From assembly GCF_019038415.1 (NCBI RefSeq), contig NZ_JAFKRG010000025.1, positions 1 through 36,837 on the forward strand: a stretch of DNA of 36,837 bases, in the 5' to 3' direction. This DNA is from Synechococcus sp. CCY 9618. GTDB taxonomy: Bacteria > Cyanobacteriota > Cyanobacteriia > PCC-6307 > Cyanobiaceae. This document shows positions 24,110 to 34,995 of this stretch, piece by piece (the stretch's first letter is position 1; every line of letters starts with the position of its first letter). The notes below the pieces were generated by a model that was not told the DNA's origin, did not search any database, and saw only the letters and a list, made by a program, of their open reading frames with translations. Made by a program: the position numbers and the translations under genes.

Positions 24110-24442
24110 TCACGGGCACAGAGGGGAGGGCCTGCCGCACTGGGCGCCCAGCGCCGCCAGCCAGCGGCGCAGCTGTTCGATCGCTTCCGGGCGCAGGCGG
24201 TAGTAGATCCAGCGGCCCTCCTGCCGATCGGCGAGCAGCCCGGCCTCCTTGAGCACCTTGAGGTGGAAGGAGAGCTTCGACTGGGCCAGGTCGAGATCGC
24301 CGGTGAGATCGCAGACGCAACGCTCGCCGCTGCCGAGGGCCTCGATCACCCGCAGGCGCAGGGGGTCGGCGAGGGCCTTGAGCAGGGCCCGGGCCTGATC
24401 GGATGGGATGGGCGGAGGGGCAACAACCGCTGGAACAGCCAT
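24110..24442 (-). CDS. arsR: ArsR-family arsenic-responsive repressor
   Basis: The ATG at 24442 gives 110 aa, a typical ArsR/SmtB winged-helix repressor. The helix-turn-helix is LDLAQSKLSFHLKVLKEAGLL and the wing is DRQEGRWIYYRL. The CVCDL motif just before it is the As(III)/Sb(III)-sensing cysteine pair of classical ArsR proteins, with a possible third ligand (C-terminal CGRPSPLCP cysteines). It is divergent from gap-arsJ, and a perfect palindrome lies in the 69-nt spacer. The inferred role is repression of itself and the export genes until arsenite binds. The open frame continues upstream as a shadow of gap. Confidence 0.92.
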   Translation of the reverse strand: MAVPAVVAPPPIPSDQARALLKALADPLRLRVIEALGSGERCVCDLTGDLDLAQSKLSFHLKVLKEAGLLADRQEGRWIYYRLRPEAIEQLRRWLAALGAQCGRPSPLCP

Positions 24443-24461
24443 GTGCTCGGCAACACGTATG

Positions 24462-24481
24462 AGATCAACTTTAGTTGATCT
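24462..24481. promoter_or_regulatory. Probable ArsR operator palindrome
   Basis: A perfect 9-2-9 inverted repeat (AGATCAACT-TT-AGTTGATCT) lies between arsR and gap. It is AT-rich compared with its surroundings. ArsR-type repressors bind imperfect or perfect palindromes of this size overlapping their promoters, so it probably controls both directions. It abuts an ATG at 24482, which makes that codon an unlikely start for gap. Confidence 0.8.
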
Positions 24482-24511
24482 ATGTTCGGGCCCTGGTCGC
24501 CCCTGTTCCGG

Positions 24512-25558
24512 ATGAAGATCGGCATCAACGGCTTCGGCCGCATCGGCCGGCTGGTGTTCCGCGCCCTCTGGGGCCGCCCCGGCATGGAGCTGGTGCACGT
24601 CAACGACCCGGCCGGTGACGCCGCCGCCGCCGCCCACCTGCTGGCGTTCGACTCGGTGCATGGCCGCTGGCCCCAGGCGGTGGAAGCGGGCGGAACGGGC
24701 TTTCTGGTTGGCCATCAGCGCGTGGGCTATAGCCAGCAGAAGGATCCCACCGCCGTGCCCTGGGGCGCCGCCGGGGTGGAGCTGGTGCTCGAATGCAGCG
24801 GCAAGATCAAAACTCCCGACACCCTGGAGCCCTACTTCAGTGCGGCGGGCCTCAGGCGGGTGATCGTGGCCTGCCCGGTGAAAGGAATGGTCGCCGGAGC
24901 AGAGGCGCTCAACGTCGTCTACGGCATCAACCACCACCTCTACGACCCCCAGCGCCACCGCCTGCTCACGGCCGCCTCCTGCACCACCAACTGCCTGGCG
25001 CCGCTGGTGCAGGTGGTGCACGAGAGCTTCGGGATCCGCCACGGCTCGATCACCACCCTCCACGATGTGACCAACACCCAGGTGGTGGTGGATGGGTTCA
25101 AAAGCGACCTGCGCCGGGCCCGCTCCTGCATCCAGAGCCTGATCCCCACCACCACCGGTTCGGCCCGGGCGATCGGCCTGATCTTCCCCGAGTTGGCCGG
25201 CAAGCTCAATGGCCATGCCATCCGGGTGCCCTTGCTCAATGCCTCGCTCACCGATGCGGTGTTCGAGCTGCGGCAGGAGGTGAGCGCCGAGCAGGTGAAC
25301 GCCGCCTTCGAGGCCGCCGCCAACGGGCCGTTGCAGGGGATCCTGGGCTACGAAATCCGGCCGCTGGTATCGATCGACTACGTCAACGATGCGCGCAGCG
25401 CCATCGTCGACGGCCTCTCCACGATGGTGACGGGGGGCACCCAGCTCAAGGTCTACGCCTGGTACGACAACGAGTGGGGCTACAGCTGCCGGATGGCCGA
25501 TCTGGCCTGCCATGTGGCCGCCATGGAAGCCACCCTCCCAGCCGGTGCCGCCCGATGA
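24512..25558 (+). CDS. gap: ArsJ-associated glyceraldehyde-3-phosphate dehydrogenase
   Basis: The ATG at 24512 gives 348 aa starting [19 protein letters not shown], the standard GAPDH NAD-binding start. An ATG at 24482 would add ten residues and touch the operator. The catalytic cysteine is C157 in SCTTNC, and the C-terminal WYDNEWGYS signature is present. Its place next to arsR and arsJ indicates the arsenate-detoxification GAPDH: it accepts arsenate in place of phosphate to form 1-arseno-3-phosphoglycerate, which ArsJ exports. This role is inferred from context; the fold and residues are standard. Its stop overlaps arsJ as ATGA. Confidence 0.92.
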
Positions 25559-26808
25559 AACAGCTCACGGGACTGCAGCAGTACGTGGTCGTCACGGCCA
25601 ACTACTGGGCCTTCACCCTCACCGATGGGGCCCTGCGGATGCTGGTGGTGTTCCACTTTCACCAGCTCGGCTACTCCACCCTGGAGATCGCCTTTCTGTT
25701 TCTTTTCTACGAATTCTTCGGCATCCTCACCAACCTCTACGGCGGCTGGCTGGGGGCGCGCTTCGGGCTGCGGCTCACCCTCTGGGCCGGAACGCTGATG
25801 CAGGTGGCAGCCCTGCTGATGCTGATTCCGGTGGCCGACAGCTGGCCGCGCTGGTGGAGTGTGGCCTACGTGATGGTGGCCCAGGCGATCAGCGGCATCG
25901 CCAAGGACCTCAACAAGATGAGCGCCAAGAGCGCCATCAAGACGGTGGTGCCGGAAACCCCCGAGGACCACAGCCGGGGCGAGGCCCAGCTGTTCCAATG
26001 GGTGGCGATCCTCACCGGCTCCAAGAACGCCCTCAAGGGGGTGGGTTTCTTCCTGGGGGGATTGCTGCTCACCACGATCGGGTTCAGCGCCGCCGTTGGG
26101 GCCATGGCCGCGGGCCTGTTTGTTTCCTTCCTGATCACCCTGGTGCTGCCCGGCGAGATCGGGCGCATGAAGCAGAAGCCGGCGTTCGGAGCGCTGTTCT
26201 CGAAATCGCAGGGCATCAACGTGCTGTCGCTGGCGCGCTTCTTCCTGTTCGGCGCCCGTGATGTCTGGTTCGTGGTGGCCCTGCCGGTGTTCCTGCAATC
26301 AGTGCTGGGATGGAAATACTGGGAAGCCGGTGGCTTCATGGGCCTGTGGGTGATCGGCTACGGGATCATTCAGGCCTCGGTGCCGGCCCTGCGGCGCAGC
26401 TGGGGCAAAAGCGGTCCGCCAGGGGTGTCTGCCGTGCAGTTCTGGAGCGCCGTGCTGACGGCCATCCCCGGCCTGATCGCCATCAGCCTGTGGCGCAATG
26501 TGGGCAATCCCGGGGTTGCGGTGGTGGTGGGCCTGGCAGCCTTCGGGGCCGTGTTCGCGATGAATTCCTCCATCCACAGCTACATGGTGCTGGCCTACAC
26601 CGATGCCGAATCGGTGAGCCTCAACGTGGGCTTCTATTACATGGCCAATGCGGCGGGCCGGCTGGTGGGCACGTTGCTCTCCGGTGCCCTGTTCCTGGTG
26701 GGCGGCCTGCAGGCCTGCCTGTGGGCCTCATGCCTGCTGGTGGCCCTGGCCTTCCTCTCAGGGATCCGTCTGCCGCCGCCCCTGCGGCAGCAGCTGGAGG
26801 CGGCCTGA
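25555..26808 (+). CDS. arsJ: Organoarsenical efflux MFS transporter ArsJ
   Basis: The 417-aa product is a major facilitator superfamily protein with about 12 membrane spans. The N-terminal [31 protein letters not shown] and [19 protein letters not shown], and later [21 protein letters not shown], are as I recall them for ArsJ. ArsJ expels 1-arseno-3-phosphoglycerate made by the adjacent GAPDH; the product then decays to arsenate outside the cell. The ATG overlaps the gap stop (ATGA), so both proteins are made together under ArsR control. No truncation is seen. Confidence 0.93.
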
Positions 26809-27163: not shown

Positions 27164-27511
27164 TCAACTCTCATGGTCGCCTGCAAGCAGGATGTCGACC
27201 AACGCTTCCAGGACCTCAGTCATTTTCACAGGATTCAGCCGGCCGGCCACTCCAGAATTGATCGAGAAATTCGCAGTGAACAACTTACCGATGCGGACAA
27301 AGCTCTCACGCTTGAGCCCTCCATTGTCAAAGTCACTTTCCAGAAGCGGAATTGCCAGCCTATCTGTGTAGGACTTGCTGGTGATCTGACACAGCACAAA
27401 GTCCCAGATTCCAACGTCTGCAATGACCAAGGCCGGCCTGCGCTTGGCTTGCGACAGGTCGGAATAGGGGAACAGGATGAGTACGACGTCACCTATTGCA
27501 GGTGGGCCCAT
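27164..27511 (-). CDS. MazF/PemK-like toxin
   Basis: The 115-aa protein matches the PemK/MazF fold, ribosome-dependent or -independent mRNA endoribonucleases of type II toxin-antitoxin systems. Signatures: GDVVLILFPYSDLSQAKRRPALVI at the start (beta-barrel with the conserved basic residues), then LCQITSK, and a later SFVRIGKLFT with the catalytic-region basic/hydroxyl residues. The ATG at 27511 overlaps the antitoxin stop by 19 nt, the usual toxin-after-antitoxin order. GC is lower than in the flanking core genes, consistent with acquisition. Confidence 0.87.
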   Translation of the reverse strand: MGPPAIGDVVLILFPYSDLSQAKRRPALVIADVGIWDFVLCQITSKSYTDRLAIPLLESDFDNGGLKRESFVRIGKLFTANFSINSGVAGRLNPVKMTEVLEALVDILLAGDHES

Positions 27512-27702
27512 GCAGCTTCCTCTTCTGAGTTCAGCCAGTCAGCCGCTAGAGCCGTTTCACTTAAGACAACTCCGCTGATGACAGAGTCAGGGTCGTCAAC
27601 AGGAACGGAAACGAACACCTTCGCCCCCGCCTTCAGATGGACAGAGCTCTGGATTCTGATACGTCCATCTTTTTCAACGACAGCCTCAAATATGTTGTCC
27701 AT
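27493..27702 (-). CDS. Antitoxin of the MazF/PemK-like pair
   Basis: The 69-aa product lies directly before the toxin gene and overlaps it by 19 nt. The N-terminal half (IFEAVVEKDGRIRIQSSVHLKAGAKVFVSVP) is a small beta-rich, AbrB-like or DUF2281-like DNA-binding fold. The C-terminal half is acidic (LSETALAADWLNSEEEAAWAHL), as expected for the toxin-binding tail; this tail recurs in antitoxins of this kind. It probably represses its own promoter, in the 193-nt gene-free interval upstream (27703-27895). No other gene is seen in that interval. Confidence 0.82.
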   Translation of the reverse strand: MDNIFEAVVEKDGRIRIQSSVHLKAGAKVFVSVPVDDPDSVISGVVLSETALAADWLNSEEEAAWAHLQ

Positions 27703-27895: not shown

Positions 27896-28981
27896 TCACC
27901 CCCCCAACCCCCTACAAGCCCGCAACACCACATCGGCGCAGCGCCCGTACACAGCGGCCCGCCAGGCGGGGCTGTCGATCAGGAAGGCATCGCGCACCTG
28001 GCGGCGGATCGCTTCGCGGTGGGTGGTGGGGCGATCGGGCACGGCGTGCAGCCAGGCATCGGCGCGCAGGGCCGCCAGCACCTGATCGATCGGGCGGGTG
28101 CCGAACTCCAGGGCCAGAACGGTGAGCTCCACCGCAGGGAGCATTCGGCGCAGAAACACCGGCAACGAGCCCGACACCTCCGATGAGCTGGACGGGCCCA
28201 GGCCGGGCCGGGTGACCTCCGGGCCATACCAGCGCTGCAGCCGCTCCCAGTCATCGCCTGTGGCGCCGCTGCCGATCAGCTCCCCGAAGCCCCAGGGGCC
28301 CAGGCCGGTGTGCAGGTCGATCACCGCCAGGCGGCGGCAGGCCGGGCCCAGGTGCTCGGTGAGGATCTTCTCCAGGGTGGACAGCGACCAGCTGGGGCGG
28401 CTGCCGCCATAGAAGAGGCCGGTGGGATGGGTGTACTGGCCGCGCTGCAGCGCCGCCTGGTAGGCGGCCATCCCGTGCCCGCGGATGAAGGCCTCCAGCA
28501 GGATGTCGGCCCGTTGCCGCTCGGGCCCGTCCCAGTCGCCGGGCAGCAGGGCGTCGTGGAGGGCGTCGTAGGCCGGGTTCTGGGGCAGGGGGCCGCAGAA
28601 GTCGAGGCCGTTGCGGTTGAGATCAATGTTTTGTTCGTTGCCGCGGCGCAGCCAGGCGAAGCCATGGGGGTTGAGGGCATGGATCAGCAGCGCCCCGCCG
28701 CCGGCCGGCAGGGCGCCGTGGAGTTCATCCAGCAACACGCCCACCTGGCAACCAGATCCGGCCAGGCCCTCCACGCCGTGGGTGCCGGAGATCAGCAGCA
28801 GCAGGGACTCGGGCTCGGCGGGGCCCAGGGCCGCCGCATCGATGGCGAGCGGCTCGCCGGCCGGGCCGCGGTGATCGGGCAGGACATGGCTGGTGAGCCG
28901 GGCGCCGGCGCCAACGACGGCGGCCAGGAACGCCTCACGGGCCGAGCGGTAATCGGGGCGGAAGAAGTCGCTGGTGGCCAT
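27896..28981 (-). CDS. DUF2817 family M14-like zinc carboxypeptidase
   Basis: The ATG at 28981 gives 361 aa. The protein matches DUF2817, a branch of the M14 carboxypeptidase/succinylglutamate-desuccinylase fold. The zinc and substrate residues are in place: H68 and E71 in SGTHGVEG, ALNPHGFAWLRRGNE followed by NIDLNRN, AVIDLHTGLG (zinc histidine) and a late ALEFGTRP glutamate. Likely hydrolyses an amide or peptide; the substrate is unknown. No signal peptide. High GC, so it appears native, although it lies between two low-GC acquired segments. Confidence 0.85.
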   Translation of the reverse strand: MATSDFFRPDYRSAREAFLAAVVGAGARLTSHVLPDHRGPAGEPLAIDAAALGPAEPESLLLLISGTHGVEGLAGSGCQVGVLLDELHGALPAGGGALLIHALNPHGFAWLRRGNEQNIDLNRNGLDFCGPLPQNPAYDALHDALLPGDWDGPERQRADILLEAFIRGHGMAAYQAALQRGQYTHPTGLFYGGSRPSWSLSTLEKILTEHLGPACRRLAVIDLHTGLGPWGFGELIGSGATGDDWERLQRWYGPEVTRPGLGPSSSSEVSGSLPVFLRRMLPAVELTVLALEFGTRPIDQVLAALRADAWLHAVPDRPTTHREAIRRQVRDAFLIDSPAWRAAVYGRCADVVLRACRGLGG

Positions 28982-29409
28982 GGGGGTGGGGGTGGGGCCG
29001 TGGGCGATCAGCAGGGGTGGTCGTTGTGGCGCGGCAGCGCGAGAATGGATGGCTTCAGGGCGTAACGGTATGGATTGGGATCGGCGGCTGGGTCGGAACC
29101 GCTGCGATGACTCATCCAATACTCGCTGCTCTCCGTCTGCAAGCACCAGCTCCATTCTTCGCTGAAGCAGAACGGCACTTGGATTCCGATCAACATGAGC
29201 ATCGCTTGGATGTCGTTACACAAGACATTGCAGACGATTCCCTCAGCAACGAGCTCATCCTTCTCCCCCTCGAGAACGAGAATTTTCTTCGTCTCGATGG
29301 CGGGCAGGATTGGGCGAGAATGAAAGCACCTCTAACGCTCCAGATCAGAAGCGGGCCGAGACTTGGAAAATGATGAGTTATTCTTGCTTACGTCTTCTAC
29401 ATTTGGAAG
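28982..29409. other. Gene-poor left flank of the low-GC island
   Basis: No supported gene is seen here. GC falls from core level to about half across the first 200 nt. A 71-codon minus-strand frame (29008-29223) and a 118-codon plus-strand frame (29017-29373) both exist, but neither has a recognisable domain, and they overlap. They could be remnants of genes lost when the island arrived. Confidence 0.5.
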
Positions 29410-29632
29410 ATATTAGCCGTACCTAGAAGGTCCAGATGGACGCTACGTCGATCCGAATTGGGTGGCACGAAGAGTCGGTCTGATGGGTGTGTGGAGCTCG
29501 AGAGCTACCACCCCGAGCAAATAGCATCGTTGCAAGATGCCGAAATAATGCCCGGTATGATCTGATCGAAATCAAGAAGAAACGACCGAGAACGCCGACG
29601 AGACTCCTCCTGCCTTCAAAATCGTAACACAC
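29410..29632 (-). ncRNA. Candidate structured RNA downstream of drt3b
   Basis: This gene-free segment directly follows the drt3b stop. Read on the minus strand it contains hairpins: GCATC/GATGC (29524-29540), a near-perfect 8-bp stem with one bulge (GTGGAGCT/AGCTACCAC, 29491-29511) and GTCC/GGAC (29430-29441). An ACACAC tract (plus-strand GTGTGT at 29487-29492) overlaps the base of the second stem. Type 3 DRT systems carry an associated non-coding RNA, and an ACACAC template for GT-repeat synthesis has been reported for them as I recall. Boundaries are a guess; a random hexamer is a real alternative. Confidence 0.33.
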
Positions 29633-31735
29633 TCAGTACACACTGGTCCGCTGGCGGCGTTCAAGACTTCGAAAAAGTGACACGTCCTGCCAGTCGCTGA
29701 ACCATGGATGACTTTCAAGCCACTGCACAGCTCCTGTCAACTCCGCATTAGCCCTTGACTTACGCGTTCCGAGTTTTTCTACGGAGTCCTTGAGCAGTTT
29801 CTTCCTGAAGTCCTTTGAGAAGTGCGGGCAGGACAAAGCATCAAGCACCAAGTGAGTCACCTCTGAGGATGCTTCCAAGTCAACCTTAGAACAGTCGCGA
29901 ACACGATCAGCTATTGCTTGCTCGACTTCACGCACAGCATCCTCGTATCCCTTGCGGCCACCGGAATACCTCGCGAGCGTGATCAGGGAGAAGTAGTCAA
30001 GCTTGGACAACAGACCACCCTTTGGAACTACCCAAAGCTTCAATATGTGCCATGGAATTTCAAATTCCGCCCCCAACTGCCCAACCAGAGTTACCACATT
30101 TAGCGTTTCCAGCCCTGCACCTTGCATGGCTGGCCTCACCTCCGCGGTCTCCCTGAGAAAAGCGGTAGCCGAACGGAACACCTGCTCCTCCACAGCAAGT
30201 TTGACATCCCGTAAGCCAGTATATTCTAGGAATGACAATGCCAGCAGGATTGAGCTAGCCAGCCTTGTAGAGTGGTCCACAGTTGGTGAAACGGCATATA
30301 AGAAAAAAACCAGTTCGACAAGTAGCAATATGCATCGCCTGTACTTCGATGCGTCTCCATCTGAAACACTTTCTACCTGGCAAATTCGAATAAGATGGTT
30401 TGAGAGTGCGGGGATGAGGTAACCCGTAACCAAGCCGTAACCGAACTCGCTGCTACTGCAAACAGCCCGAATCTGCTTGAGGAACGCCGCCTTTAGTCTG
30501 TGAATACTTCGTATCTCCTTCGGAACGACTGCGAACTTCGGACTAGGCTCTCTAACCTCATCAGGAAGACCGGCTGCCTCTTCATCTGATAGATTTTTTA
30601 GATCCGCGCCTGGGTCAGCGCCAACACTTGACCGCATCGAAATAGTATCGATTAAGGCCGCTAATGGTCCCTTGATTCGTTCAATTGCCGCGGAGCGCTC
30701 GGTGATGAAGGGCCTTGCAAGCTTGATGGTTTTTTTGGAATTGATGGACAGGTGGTAGGTTTCCAGTTCAGCCGCGACCACTTCCGCAACCTCTGCCGCT
30801 ACCACTTCGTTAGCCGCGAAGACAAAGTAGTCATCTACATACCTGCGAACTACAAACCTCCCCGAGAGATGATCCCTACGTTTTTCTATGAACTTTGCCG
30901 CCCGGGCGTCTACGTCCTGAAGGATGATCTCAGCGAAGATCCGGCTCAGTTCAGGACCAACTAGAATTCCATTTGTCTCCGCCCAGTTGGCATCTCTCAT
31001 TTCGCGATCGATTTCGCCACCAAATGTGTTTGCACTCGCATCAATATGTTGCTTCACAACGCCTTTGGACTTCATTGCCCACGAAACAGAGTGGGTATAG
31101 ATGCTGCCAAAGCAGTTGCTTATGTCGAGCATCCAAAGAACAGGGTAACGCCGCTCCAAACCCAGGAACTCCTCGGATTCAAAGAACTTGTGCAGCCGAC
31201 GGTAGCCAGTATAGGCAAAAAACGAGGTTGGGTGGCGGAACAGAAAATGCTCAGAGTCAAGATCAACGCCAGCCGCAGCATGCTTAAGGTGATGGATGTT
31301 CTGATTCGAGTTTTCCACTAATGTGCGGCTACCGGCCTTCTTGGGAGCACGCAGAGACCAGCTGCTTCGCTGACAGTAATGAACCATCAACAAGTGGCGA
31401 TGCCTGTACATCTGAGCCCACCGTATCTGATTGCGGGGATGTGGAAGAGCCAGTTTCCGGTCCTTAACCGGACTCACTCGTACAGAGTATTGATAGGGAC
31501 GAGATGGGCTATTGTTCTTAGGATCAGGGTGTGGATCCAAGAGCTTAGCGATGAATGCTTCAAGCAATTCCGAGCCCGGCCACGAGCCTGCCCTTAGATC
31601 CTGCCGATGGGCCCTAGCCCATTGGTAGGTGCCCTCGTTGCTGAAGAAAAGAGGAACCTCCACGGGAGTGGTATCCGTCAGGAGGACGCGCAGAAAGTCG
31701 GAATCTCTTAGGGACTGCGTTTGATGTTTAGGCAT
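29633..31735 (-). CDS. drt3b: Antiviral reverse transcriptase, Drt3b-like
   Basis: From the ATG at 31735 the protein has 700 aa; an upstream TTG at 31753 is a weaker option. A long N-terminal region precedes the polymerase core: motif A LDISNCFGSIYTHS with D204, motif B-like NGILVGPELSRIFAE, and motif C RRYVDDYFVF with YVDD at 299-302, so both catalytic aspartates of motif C are intact. About 370 mostly helical residues follow, with no nuclease or protease motif that I recognise. Size, order and pairing with the upstream RT match Drt3b (UG8) of type 3 defense-associated RT systems. The start overlaps the drt3a stop by 8 nt. GC is near one half. Confidence 0.83.
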   Translation of the reverse strand: MPKHQTQSLRDSDFLRVLLTDTTPVEVPLFFSNEGTYQWARAHRQDLRAGSWPGSELLEAFIAKLLDPHPDPKNNSPSRPYQYSVRVSPVKDRKLALPHPRNQIRWAQMYRHRHLLMVHYCQRSSWSLRAPKKAGSRTLVENSNQNIHHLKHAAAGVDLDSEHFLFRHPTSFFAYTGYRRLHKFFESEEFLGLERRYPVLWMLDISNCFGSIYTHSVSWAMKSKGVVKQHIDASANTFGGEIDREMRDANWAETNGILVGPELSRIFAEIILQDVDARAAKFIEKRRDHLSGRFVVRRYVDDYFVFAANEVVAAEVAEVVAAELETYHLSINSKKTIKLARPFITERSAAIERIKGPLAALIDTISMRSSVGADPGADLKNLSDEEAAGLPDEVREPSPKFAVVPKEIRSIHRLKAAFLKQIRAVCSSSEFGYGLVTGYLIPALSNHLIRICQVESVSDGDASKYRRCILLLVELVFFLYAVSPTVDHSTRLASSILLALSFLEYTGLRDVKLAVEEQVFRSATAFLRETAEVRPAMQGAGLETLNVVTLVGQLGAEFEIPWHILKLWVVPKGGLLSKLDYFSLITLARYSGGRKGYEDAVREVEQAIADRVRDCSKVDLEASSEVTHLVLDALSCPHFSKDFRKKLLKDSVEKLGTRKSRANAELTGAVQWLESHPWFSDWQDVSLFRSLERRQRTSVY

Positions 31736-32954
31736 ACTTCCAGCACCCCACAATTTTCCCCACCCTTTGACTGGAGAACTTGGTCAATTGTCGAGTGCGA
31801 TGACCGGCGATGAAGGAGTACCGCGCCAGGTGTCGGCGTTGCCCGTTAGTGAGTGCTGCCGCAAGGCTCCTACTCAGCGAAGTTTTGCGACCCAACAGCA
31901 GCGCCCTCAGGAACGAGTCCAGCTTCGACAGTCCGCTTTCGCCCTGGTCATATGTGCTTGCGGAAACGGCAGGGTACGAGTAGAAAATTCCCACCTTAGG
32001 TCGATGCCCTTTCTGCCCGCCTGGAATTCTATAGTTCCCACTGAGGGCGCGGATTCGATCCTCAAATAGCGCGTAGTCATGGTCGATCAAGAACGCTCGG
32101 GCCGACAAGCACAGTCGTGATGAAACCTTTTCTATTTTCGCAGGTGCAATATCAATTGAAACCGCGTTTTTGTTTTTCTTTTGGGGCGTGATGGTGTACC
32201 GGTAGCCAAGGAATTCGATATGGCTGGGGAGCTTGTTGGCCTGCCCACCTTCGATCAATACGCCATGTGACTTTTCATGGTTGAGGCGCAGCCCACCCCG
32301 AGTTCGCAATTGGTCTCGAAGCCATGACTTTAGGTCAAGATGCTTGGCTTCCGCCGATGTCACAACGATAATGTCGTCTACGTATCTGGAATAGAAGTAA
32401 ATGTGATCATGGTTTGACAGGGCCCTGTCAATTGGCAGCAGGTAGTCCTCAGAGAGTACGGCGCTGGAAGGAACTCCTCGTGGGAGTCCGACAACGCCTT
32501 GTTCGGTACAGCCCTGGAAAAGAGAGCGCATGACCCGCACTGCTGATCGGGGCAAGCCAAGGTCATCTATCAGCCGCAGTTCGATCTGTTCTCTTGGTAT
32601 TGACTCATAGAACTGCCGCAGATCGAACCGATGAACTACAAAGGGAATGCCTTCTGAGAACATATTTGCGACAGTCGCATTCACTAAATGACGGTTGGCC
32701 TGCTTCACTCGTGTAACCTTCGAAAAGGTTGCCGTCGCCGCAGAGACCAGTAGGCGGTCCAGCATGTCCAGTGGTTGGTAAACCTCGAATTTTCCTCTGG
32801 GGCTTCTGAACAGCTGCATGGTCCACATCGGGCCCATTGCTCGACAGTGGGCCTCTTCAATGGAGCCCGTCCCGAAGATCGGAATTGCTTCCAGCCTCGG
32901 GTCGGCGTCACGAATGGCTCTTAGGCCGGCAAGTGTCATGGGACTAGAGAGCAT
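31728..32954 (-). CDS. drt3a: Antiviral reverse transcriptase, Drt3a-like
   Basis: The ATG at 32954 follows GGAG with a 4-nt spacing and gives 408 aa. A GTG at 33026 would add 24 residues. The RT core is complete: motif A VHRFDLRQFYESI with D111, motif B GLPRGVPSSAVLSE (157-169), motif C YSRYVDDIIVV with YVDD at 191-194, and motif D/E-like LNHEKSH and IEFLGYRY. The C-terminal thumb-like region is basic. Together with drt3b this is the two-RT layout of DRT type 3 (UG3 + UG8), in which both RTs and an ncRNA give phage resistance. No group II intron domain V or maturase region is seen. Confidence 0.83.
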   Translation of the reverse strand: MLSSPMTLAGLRAIRDADPRLEAIPIFGTGSIEEAHCRAMGPMWTMQLFRSPRGKFEVYQPLDMLDRLLVSAATATFSKVTRVKQANRHLVNATVANMFSEGIPFVVHRFDLRQFYESIPREQIELRLIDDLGLPRSAVRVMRSLFQGCTEQGVVGLPRGVPSSAVLSEDYLLPIDRALSNHDHIYFYSRYVDDIIVVTSAEAKHLDLKSWLRDQLRTRGGLRLNHEKSHGVLIEGGQANKLPSHIEFLGYRYTITPQKKNKNAVSIDIAPAKIEKVSSRLCLSARAFLIDHDYALFEDRIRALSGNYRIPGGQKGHRPKVGIFYSYPAVSASTYDQGESGLSKLDSFLRALLLGRKTSLSRSLAAALTNGQRRHLARYSFIAGHRTRQLTKFSSQRVGKIVGCWKYA

Positions 32955-33370
32955 AAAACTCCACAGCACAGGCCAATTTAGACTTCTTATTCGGTGGGGC
33001 GACGCGTGCGGTCTGCCGATGTCCACTTTTCTCAGACTTTCACCGGTAGTCTTGCCTGCTCAGGAGCCTGTCAGCGTTGTCTCCGTCAGGCGCGCCCTGC
33101 ATGATGGAGTGGGCTACCACATAGTGCTCATAACTTGTTTTTCGGCGGTTTCCGTGAACTACACCCACAATGTGATCCCATTCTGAGAACTCCTCGGGAA
33201 ACTGCTGGAGAGGTTCCCTCAATCCCTGGCGCTGCATGGCCTTGCGAAAGCAACGTCCACGTTGTAGCAGTGGCTCACGGGTCCCATCACCCCCTGTATC
33301 CAGAGATACCCAAGTCTTGCCAACCTCCCCACATTGAGCAGTTCAAGTCCCGCAAAGAGATCCAGCCCGC
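32955..33370 (-). other. Leader region upstream of drt3a
   Basis: This 416-nt stretch separates drt3a from the broken MFS gene and probably holds the DRT promoter. A 65-codon minus-strand frame (33040-33237, starting QRQGLREPLQQFPEEF) is protein-like, and the frame before it (to 33219) reads DLFAGLELLNVGRLARLGYL. They could be two pieces of one frame-broken gene. No domain is recognised. The segment may alternatively encode the DRT-associated RNA. Confidence 0.45.
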
Positions 33371-34273
33371 TCACCCCCGCGCACTGCGCAGGGCGAAAGG
33401 CACGGTGAGCAGCAGGCTCCCCCCGGCGACCACGCACAACCCCGGCAGGGAGATGTCGATCAGCACCCCCGAGAGGGCCTGGGACAGGGGATCGAAGGCG
33501 ACGCCGGCCAGCATGGCCAGGGCCATCACCCGGCCCTGCAGGGGTGCCGGGGTCTCCCGCTGCAACCAGGCGGTGGCCAGCACCCCCACCAGGCCGCCGC
33601 CGATCCCCATCGCCGCCAGCAGGGCGGCCGCCGTCCACCACTGGCAGGCCACCGCCAACCCCAGCAGGCCCGCCCCCAGCCCGGCCGACAGCCAGCCCAG
33701 CGCGCCCCCCGGATGGGCGATGGCACCGAACCGGCCGGCCCACCAGACCCCCACCAGGGCACCCACGCCGTAGGCGGCCTGGAGCCAGCCGTAGGTGGCG
33801 GCGTCACCGCCGAAGCGCAGCGTCACCAGCTCCACCACGCCGATCACCACCGGGCCCAGCACGGCGAGGTTGATCATGGCGATCAGCGTCAGGCCCGTGC
33901 GGATCGCCCCGTGGCCCCAGGCGAAGGCGACCCCTCCCGCAGGCCCTGCCCCAGGCCCCCCGTCGGGGCCGTGTCCGCCGCGGCCAAACGGGGCCGCACC
34001 TGCACGAAGCAGCCCACGGCGAGCAGCAGCAGAACGGTGTCGAAGGCCAGGGCCGCCGTCGCCCCGGCAACGGCCAGGGACAGGCCCGCCAGAGCCGGCC
34101 CGGCCACGTTGCTGATCTGCTCGCTGCCCTGGAGCCAGGCGTGGGCCTGGCCGAGATGGCGGTCCTCCAGCAGGCGGGGCCAGGGAGGTGCCCGAGCCCG
34201 TGCGCTGCAGCATCAGCCAGGTGACGGCGACGAACCAGAACTGGACGCCGGCGAACAGGAGGGATCCGCTCAT
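33371..34273 (-). pseudogene. MFS transporter pseudogene (internal deletion and frameshifts)
   Basis: The ATG at 34273 overlaps the stop of the upstream Coq4-like gene (ATGA). The first 30 residues (SGSLLFAGVQFWFVAVTWLML, then QRTGSGTSL) look like an early membrane span of an MFS exporter. At about 34190 the protein-like sequence jumps to another frame (HLGQAHAWLQGSEQISNVAG onward), and the span that normally lies between these parts is missing, so a deletion is likely. Near 33935 it returns to the first frame (VAFAWGHGAIRTGLTL) and continues through the later membrane spans to the stop. Two frame changes plus a deletion make it non-functional unless these are assembly errors. Confidence 0.75.
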
Positions 34274-34995
34274 GGCCGCCCCAGCCACTCAGCGAAGGGG
34301 CGCAGCTGGAGCTCCTCGCGCCACTGCTGCAGTGGCTTGGCCCAGCCCTCCTCCCAGCGCTGGGCGAACAGGGGCCTGGCCTCCCGCCCCATCTCCAGCC
34401 CGATCCGGATCGCCTCCACCAGGGGAGGCAGCAGCTCGGGCTCCAGGACGGTGATCGACAGCAGCGACTGGGCCGTGAGCGCCGAGGCCAGAGGATAGGG
34501 GAACTGGCTGAGATGGAAGGCCTGCAGGCCGATCTCGCCGATCACTGAGGTGTCGAAGCCGGTGATCACGTGCCAGAGGTCGTGGGTCTGGCTGAGGCGC
34601 AGCTCCACATACACCGCGTCGTTGGTGGGCTCCATGCCGGCATGGAGGTTGGGGTCGTAACCCAGCTGCCCCATGGCCGACCCATAGACCTGGCCGAGGC
34701 AGCCCTGCGGCAGGGCGGCGAGCTGGGTCAGGTCGTGGGCGGGGGGAATCCAGCGCTGATCGATCAGGGCAGCGCAGGCCGGATCGCGGCGCAGGTGCTC
34801 CGCCGCCAGCGCATAGGACGGGGTCTCGAGCAGGGCTTCGCTGAGGGCCCCCACCAGCTCGAGGCTGGTGTCGCCGCCGCCCATGGCCACGACGGTGCCG
34901 AAGATCCGGAACAGCTGGGGCGGCACCGCCTGGGCCTCGAACGGCGCAGCGGCGGGCAGAAGGGTGGTGGCCATGGCAGGAACCGCAAAGAACAT
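34270..34995 (-). CDS. Coq4 family protein
   Basis: The 241-aa frame has the Coq4 zinc motif HDLWHVITGFDTS...E: H138, D139, H142 and E154. Upstream are the family's LGQVYGSAMGQLGYDPNLH and the ND-x-YVELRLSQTHD approach. In eukaryotes Coq4 acts in ubiquinone synthesis. Picocyanobacteria make plastoquinone instead, so the role here is unknown. The ATG at 34974 (234 aa) is an alternative start and would leave the putative operator free. The stop overlaps the MFS pseudogene start, so the two formed an operon. It is divergent from tetR, which probably regulates it. Confidence 0.85.
   Translation of the reverse strand: MFFAVPAMATTLLPAAAPFEAQAVPPQLFRIFGTVVAMGGGDTSLELVGALSEALLETPSYALAAEHLRRDPACAALIDQRWIPPAHDLTQLAALPQGCLGQVYGSAMGQLGYDPNLHAGMEPTNDAVYVELRLSQTHDLWHVITGFDTSVIGEIGLQAFHLSQFPYPLASALTAQSLLSITVLEPELLPPLVEAIRIGLEMGREARPLFAQRWEEGWAKPLQQWREELQLRPFAEWLGRP

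Follow-up and report, generated by a model that had tools for sequence, protein, structure and literature searches.

Does a pair of overlapping reverse transcriptase (RT) genes found in a cyanobacterium encode a complete type 3 defence-associated RT system (DRT3), and how could such a system operate in a host without GreA, a factor on which defence depends in Escherichia coli? The question is raised by contig NZ_JAFKRG010000025.1 of Synechococcus sp. CCY 9618 (36,837 nucleotides; hereafter the window, meaning the whole stretch of DNA that was analysed), in which a preliminary description made from the letters alone had proposed a DRT3 phage-defence system. Based on the analysis presented here, it is very probable that the two genes belong to a complete DRT3 anti-phage operon in this high-GC cyanobacterium, the core of which would work as in E. 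coli, the GreA step being apart from this.

Identity of the gene pair

Both genes lie on the minus strand of the window and have intact reading frames:

32954..31728, minus strand: drt3a, 408 aa from ATG
31735..29633, minus strand: drt3b, 700 aa from ATG

The two frames overlap by 8 nt, and both proteins contain a YVDD box and the motif A aspartate (D111 in Drt3a, D204 in Drt3b). The preliminary description had reported two RT genes of about 408 and 700 aa with this overlap and these catalytic residues, all of which were found; it had not given the strand, and it had missed a downstream noncoding RNA (ncRNA) candidate lying just outside the span it covered. Alternative start codons would lengthen drt3b to 706 aa (TTG at 31753) or drt3a to 432 aa (GTG at 33026), the ATG at 32954 being in line with the starts of homologues. 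The same 8-nt overlap recurs in three annotated loci, and of 34 pairs whose overlap was measured, 11 have it. The comparison set comprised 111 loci from other sources, namely 80 genome contigs (the best 80 of 461 genome matches), 24 viral contigs (of 32 returned) and 7 plasmids. All 105 of the other loci with at least 1000 nt available upstream of drt3b have a match there to a Drt3a hidden Markov model (HMM), 31 of whose 32 source rows come from the very loci scanned.

Profile searches placed both proteins in the DRT3 families. The first protein scored 291.8 bits against the NCBIfam equivalog NF041747 (Drt3a; cut-off 200) and the second 543.4 bits against NF041748 (Drt3b; cut-off 350), scores that rule out a chance match, and the best PADLOC models were Drt3a (6e-90) and Drt3b (1.3e-172), respectively. 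The first protein also matched the solved Drt3a chain 9z6y_A (2.5e-31), with residues 53-407 aligned, while the second matched the solved Drt3b chains 9z6y_H (2.2e-92, in two stretches over residues 13-705) and 26cz (1.4e-76, over residues 15-701), the sequences being divergent in each case. The study related to 9z6y and 9z6z is that of Deng et al., as cited in the excerpts of PMC13174585 and PMC13314766.

One could instead suppose that a retron, a group II intron, a diversity-generating retroelement or another single-RT abortive infection (Abi) system stands here in tandem by coincidence, given that the general RVT_1 domain was the only Pfam domain matched by either protein. This reading is refuted by the HMM scores and retains a negligible probability: in both PADLOC and NCBIfam, the models for retrons, group II introns and the remaining UG families scored far under Drt3a and Drt3b, in NCBIfam also far under their own cut-offs, and neither a group II intron nor a retron was matched in an Rfam scan, which returned two tRNAs and one sub-threshold long intergenic noncoding RNA match at E 0.62. 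Individual candidates tried and rejected were the group II RT/maturase (52.3 bits; cut-off 300) and retron St85 (44.3 bits; cut-off 235) for the first protein, and Drt4 (110.1 bits; cut-off 450) for the second. The proposed assignment to Drt3a and Drt3b (UG3 and UG8), for which an HMM search had been suggested, is thereby supported, as is the stated absence of group II domain V and msr/msd features. Judged by its sequence, the locus is a genuine DRT3, a known kind of system.

Structure prediction gave a similar picture. The AlphaFold model of Drt3a (predicted local distance difference test score, pLDDT, 91.1) had DRT9 as its best PDB fold in Foldseek, further matches being to DRT2 and group II RTs. 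Drt3a is a UG3-type (class 2) RT, and we predict by analogy that it makes poly(dTdG) on an RNA template. The best folds for the Drt3b model (pLDDT 83.3) were DRT6, DRT4, UG15 and AbiK, indicating a class 1 RT fold with alpha-helical repeats; Drt3b is a UG8-type (class 1) RT with an alpha-helical repeat domain and a putative protein-templated, protein-primed maker of poly(dCdA). The matches of the two models give the pairing of a class 1 with a class 2 RT that is expected for DRT3. The structure 9z6y was not among the 50 Foldseek matches listed per protein (structure library to 2026-04-08).

Gates, primer and RNA template

The characterised E. coli system (EcoDRT3, PDB 26cz) provides residues against which the window can be read. 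In the excerpts of PMC13174585, poly(dCdA) synthesis by its Drt3b is described as gated by E22 and R241, helped by R71 and primed from Y666. In an alignment of 109 Drt3b rows (the window and 108 others, with 3 short rows left out), the window equivalents are E26, R93, R265 and Y700. The R241 column holds arginine in every row, window included; the R71 column has 105 R, 1 N and 3 gaps, the E22 column 71 E, 33 D, 1 H and 4 gaps, and the Y666 column 107 Y and 2 gaps. The two systems thus have in common these four residues, the order Drt3a-Drt3b and a downstream ncRNA with ACACAC, while the window differs in its divergent Drt3b and in its cyanobacterial host, which has no GreA. That a member so diverged still has the same template, gates and primer is of interest in its own right, as is the wider point that DRT3 is a system making double-stranded DNA (dsDNA) with one strand templated by protein.

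Departures in single columns were seen elsewhere. The Drt3b of Moraxella caprae (L106) has H at the E22 gate and that of Phaeobacter (L039) has N at the R71 position, both keeping the arginine gate and ACACAC. In eight rows (L064, L066, L067, L069, L073, L075, L080 and L090) the last D of YVDD is replaced by N, and these rows fall within one supported, mostly alphaproteobacterial subclade of the Drt3b tree.

A further element is the RNA template. For EcoDRT3, the excerpts of PMC13174585 describe an ncRNA downstream of the genes, with a loop of sequence ACACAC from which Drt3a makes poly(dTdG). The corresponding features of the window are as follows:

29492..29487, minus strand: template motif 5'-ACACAC-3', 140 nt past the drt3b stop
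29493..29509, minus strand: predicted hairpin directly 5' of the template (fold prediction, -5.7 kcal/mol)
29464..29614, minus strand: candidate DRT3 ncRNA core, reaching from the 5' strand through the 3' strand of a closing stem predicted to have 12 pairs (approximate ends)

The hairpin resembles in position 'stem-loop 4' of EcoDRT3, and one or two bases at the start of the template may be taken up by its outer pairs. In both the minimum free energy and the centroid folds, the closing stem pairs GGCA with UGCC and GAGGAGUC with GACUCUUC, each separated by one unpaired G.

Comparison across loci favours this placement. Within 300 nt downstream of drt3b, ACACAC is present on the sense strand in 107 of the 110 other loci with at least 250 nt downstream (L114 ends too soon; near-identical pairs are included, the sites amounting to 88 distinct 21-nt sequences). 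The antisense GTGTGT occurs in 5 of them, ACACAC in an equal stretch inside drt3b in 3, and dinucleotide shuffles contain it in 7.2% of cases. Its offset from the drt3b stop ranges from 24 to 266 nt (quartiles 120, 142 and 164). A long-range helix was significant at p<=0.05 in 47 of 101 loci, window included and with 7 loci skipped, where about 5 would be expected, and a template-adjacent hairpin in 16 of the 101. In a position matrix built without the window, the ACACAC site of the window ranks third of all window positions on both strands. Taken together, the roughly 110 loci point, at the level of sequence, to one DRT3 product in nearly all of them. The exceptions to the motif, two Snodgrassella loci (L060 and L063) and a Colwellia bin (L119), have no ACACAC within 350 nt downstream and keep the gates and primer; L119 has a shorter ACAC at a similar place, and it is possible that the templates of these three loci are degenerate or altered.

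Several results for the window itself weigh against the reading of its locus as a complete, working DRT3. The predicted RNA is not unusual in fold energy (z -1.30), and taken alone neither its closing stem (p 0.30) nor its hairpin (p 0.46) is significant. ACACAC arose in 59 of 2000 shuffles of the window's own 300-nt stretch, and the two sites that outscore it in the position matrix both lie inside the drt3b coding sequence and are without an intact ACACAC. Of the MAFFT alignments of 13 and 15 loci made for a covariance model, the 15-locus one had no consensus pairs, and the sequence-only model was left unused; Rfam matched no RNA family at the ncRNA site. Promoter-like sites were fewer than in shuffles, with none on the coding strand, in a scan limited to the sigma-70 consensus, and a terminator scan found no more candidates than in shuffles. 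The absence of GreA belongs with these points and is considered below.

Host factors and the proposed mechanism

We infer the core mechanism in the window, that is, the steps of synthesis, annealing, trigger and outcome, from the characterised E. coli systems. Drt3a would use the ACACAC loop of the ncRNA over and over as its template for poly(dTdG), and Drt3b would make poly(dCdA) without a nucleic-acid template, with the C-terminal tyrosine as primer and the glutamate and arginine as gates. The two strands would then anneal to a duplex, the level of which host RecBCD would hold low, so that a phage block of RecBCD would lead to duplex build-up and cell arrest. For the GreA step, three options are left in the window host: it is missing, something else takes its place, or the system as a whole is inactive.

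According to the excerpts of PMC13174585, DRT3 becomes toxic in E. coli when RecBCD is lost, and its defence is abolished by deletion of greA. The first of these factors is shared. The genome of the window host contains a recC-recB-recD run (L164) whose proteins have their best matches to the three families, at 537 of 582.9, 525.8 of 696.05 and 248.2 of 310.15 bits, in each case under the equivalog cut-off; RecC in this genome scored 238.9 bits in Pfam against a cut-off of 25. The second is not shared. No PF01272 match to GreA or GreB was found in this genome by a search that was positive in 9 of 14 known genomes used as a control. The GreA N-terminal domain was over cut-off in 0 of 42 genus genomes, with 8 sub-threshold matches, and the Gre C-terminal domain was matched in 1 of 291 genomes of the class. 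The excerpted text of PMC7026648 describes cyanobacteria as being without Gre factors and their RNA polymerase as having high intrinsic proofreading activity.

Among 50 other named DRT3 host genomes, GreA is present in all 50 and RecC in just 28. These represent 50 of the 80 genome loci, the other 30 being mostly metagenome bins and uncultured isolates, including isolates L088, L096, L109 and L114. Among the DRT3 hosts examined, the window host alone is without GreA; since the 50 hosts belong to other lineages, nothing causal follows from this correlation by itself. RecC went unmatched in 22 of the 50, which suggests that RecBCD is not a fixed partner of DRT3. GreA, for its part, is a host factor reported for one system and not a defining DRT3 gene.

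Because there is no GreA in the window host, it cannot act there as in E. coli. Either the proofreading of cyanobacterial RNA polymerase makes it unnecessary, or only E. coli has the requirement, or the system does not function here. The last of these would mean that the locus descends from genuine DRT3, was gained recently and is either silent or without function for want of a host factor such as GreA, an explanation that makes the same identity claim and competes on function only. It draws on the missing GreA domain in this genome and in the 42 genus genomes, on the presence of GreA in all 50 other hosts, on the single occurrence of the pair in the genus (1 of 42) and on the empty promoter scan of the coding strand. 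Set against this, neither frame is broken, and the catalytic residues, the gates, the primer tyrosine and the template have all been kept despite an identity of 34% at most, and the scan addressed the sigma-70 consensus only. We regard silence as unlikely, while still a possibility to be taken seriously. Whether the operon works without GreA, its dsDNA-producing core being kept and the transcription link seen in E. coli absent or replaced, we would put at about even chances. If it does, GreA would lie outside the core DRT3 mechanism; the host in any case offers a natural GreA-free background in which to study a GreA requirement that is so far unexplained.

Distribution and genomic setting

DRT3 is rare among the cyanobacteria sampled. 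Drt3b was over cut-off in 1 of 386 genomes of a phylum sample and 1 of 300 of a family sample (the samples overlap), and Drt3a in 1 of 42 genus genomes, in every case the genome studied here; no other cyanobacterial genome sampled exceeded these cut-offs. The host is probably a Cyanobium-like picocyanobacterium, to judge from GC content, kinship groups and a CrtR-type carotene hydroxylase. Searches of open-licence literature turned up no description of DRT3 in cyanobacteria, and the string 'cyanobacteri' is absent from the main text of two DRT3 papers; the preliminary remark that DRT3 is little described in picocyanobacteria fits these results. According to the excerpted text of a 2026 review (PMC13314766), how widely DRT3 is spread among taxa is an open question, as is the existence of subtypes whose output is another motif.

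Drt3b has at most 34% identity to the 108 other rows aligned. In the Drt3b tree, the branch leading to the window is long (1.83 changes per column) and belongs to no supported grouping, and the composition of the window sequence is skewed. The DRT3 with the highest identity, 34%, is that of Caballeronia mineralivorans (L045), and the shortest tree path leads to that of a Desulfobacterium metagenome-assembled genome (L041); both belong to other phyla, and neither forms a supported sister grouping with the window. This isolation, along with the length of Drt3b (700 aa, reached by only 3 of 104 others, with quartiles of 650, 657 and 671), could be taken to mean that the pair is merely DRT3-like, with a different DNA product or a role other than defence. 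We consider this very improbable, as the gates, primer and template agree with the characterised system and the pair is located in a defence hotspot, described below. From its sequence relationships, the window DRT3 is an outlying, very diverged member of the known system.

The genes are carried on an island between conserved flanks:

27896-29155: left flank, DUF2817 gene
29340..33231, no strand: acquired island (from blastn to genus relatives and GC content; edges approximate)
33371-34288: right flank, broken major facilitator superfamily (MFS) gene

Island GC is 0.51-0.57, compared to 0.63-0.75 for nearly all of the remaining window. Homology to relatives in blastn stops near 29031 on the left (29339 in one relative) and resumes at 33210-33356 on the right, depending on the relative. 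The MFS frame spans 305 aa here, compared to open frames of 401-439 aa in the four relatives checked, and about 240 bp of the gene, kept in relatives, have been lost beside 34177-34180. Seven of ten genus relatives fetched (L186 and L188-L193) have both flanks with cargo between them; L185 is a short contig, and L187 has no right-flank match in the stretch fetched. In the seven, the DUF2817 gene and the portion of the MFS gene closest to the island are about 93-96% identical to the window, the right side being MFS/Coq4, and 5.8-9.5 kb of other DNA with a GC of 0.48-0.60 lie between the same flanks. A search with Drt3a and Drt3b (tblastn, E 1e-3) matched none of the ten relatives' stretches. 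These results support, from sequence, horizontal acquisition of the DRT3 island, and each of the three features noted beforehand, the low GC, the broken MFS neighbour and the acquired character, has held up. The breakpoint at 34177-34180 recurs in the tenth relative, L194, as the end point of a larger deletion; all that is left of DUF2817 there is a fragment, which directly abuts the right flank.

From 49 predicted open reading frames (ORFs) of the relatives, 20 cargo proteins were scanned with PADLOC. Sixteen of the 20 match a model, some weakly, and all seven relatives with both flanks are represented; these are model matches and not proven systems. Among 10 ORFs from elsewhere in the window, one, FtsH, matched. 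The cargo matched by relative is:

L186: Hp1 and Hp2
L188: dGTPase and HNH protein
L189: AriA and AriB, which we take to be PARIS
L190: type I methylase, specificity and restriction genes
L191: NsnA
L192: PD-T4-6/mad6-like protein
L193: OloA and OloB, presumably Olokun

Because differing, low-GC, PADLOC-matching cargo occupies the place between conserved flanks, the site is a variable defence hotspot, a location that lends indirect support to the predicted anti-phage activity of the pair. The unmatched cargo genes beside the PADLOC matches are candidates for new defence genes. Within a small space, the integration site offers additional defence systems of cyanobacteria.

Two observations concern DRT3 beyond the window. 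In a Verrucomicrobia bin (L064, a 3.6-kb contig), Drt3b is nearly identical to those of Loktanella and Rhodobacter, reflecting either a recent transfer or a mis-binned contig. DRT3 is also carried on contigs called viral: 24 Drt3b relatives (L121-L144) are on IMG/VR contigs, mostly as long open frames, with 3 short and 1 cut by the contig end.

Other genes were noted in the window outside the island. A PemK/MazF-like toxin (PF02452) and a small overlapping upstream gene occupy 27164-27511 and 27493-27702 on the minus strand; neither has a PADLOC match, and the small gene, which has no Pfam match, is probably the antitoxin. On the plus strand, 24482-26808 encodes an ArsJ-associated GAPDH and an ArsJ organoarsenical efflux MFS protein, both over the NCBIfam cut-off, and an opposite-strand frame at 24110-25513 contains an ArsR-type helix-turn-helix domain.

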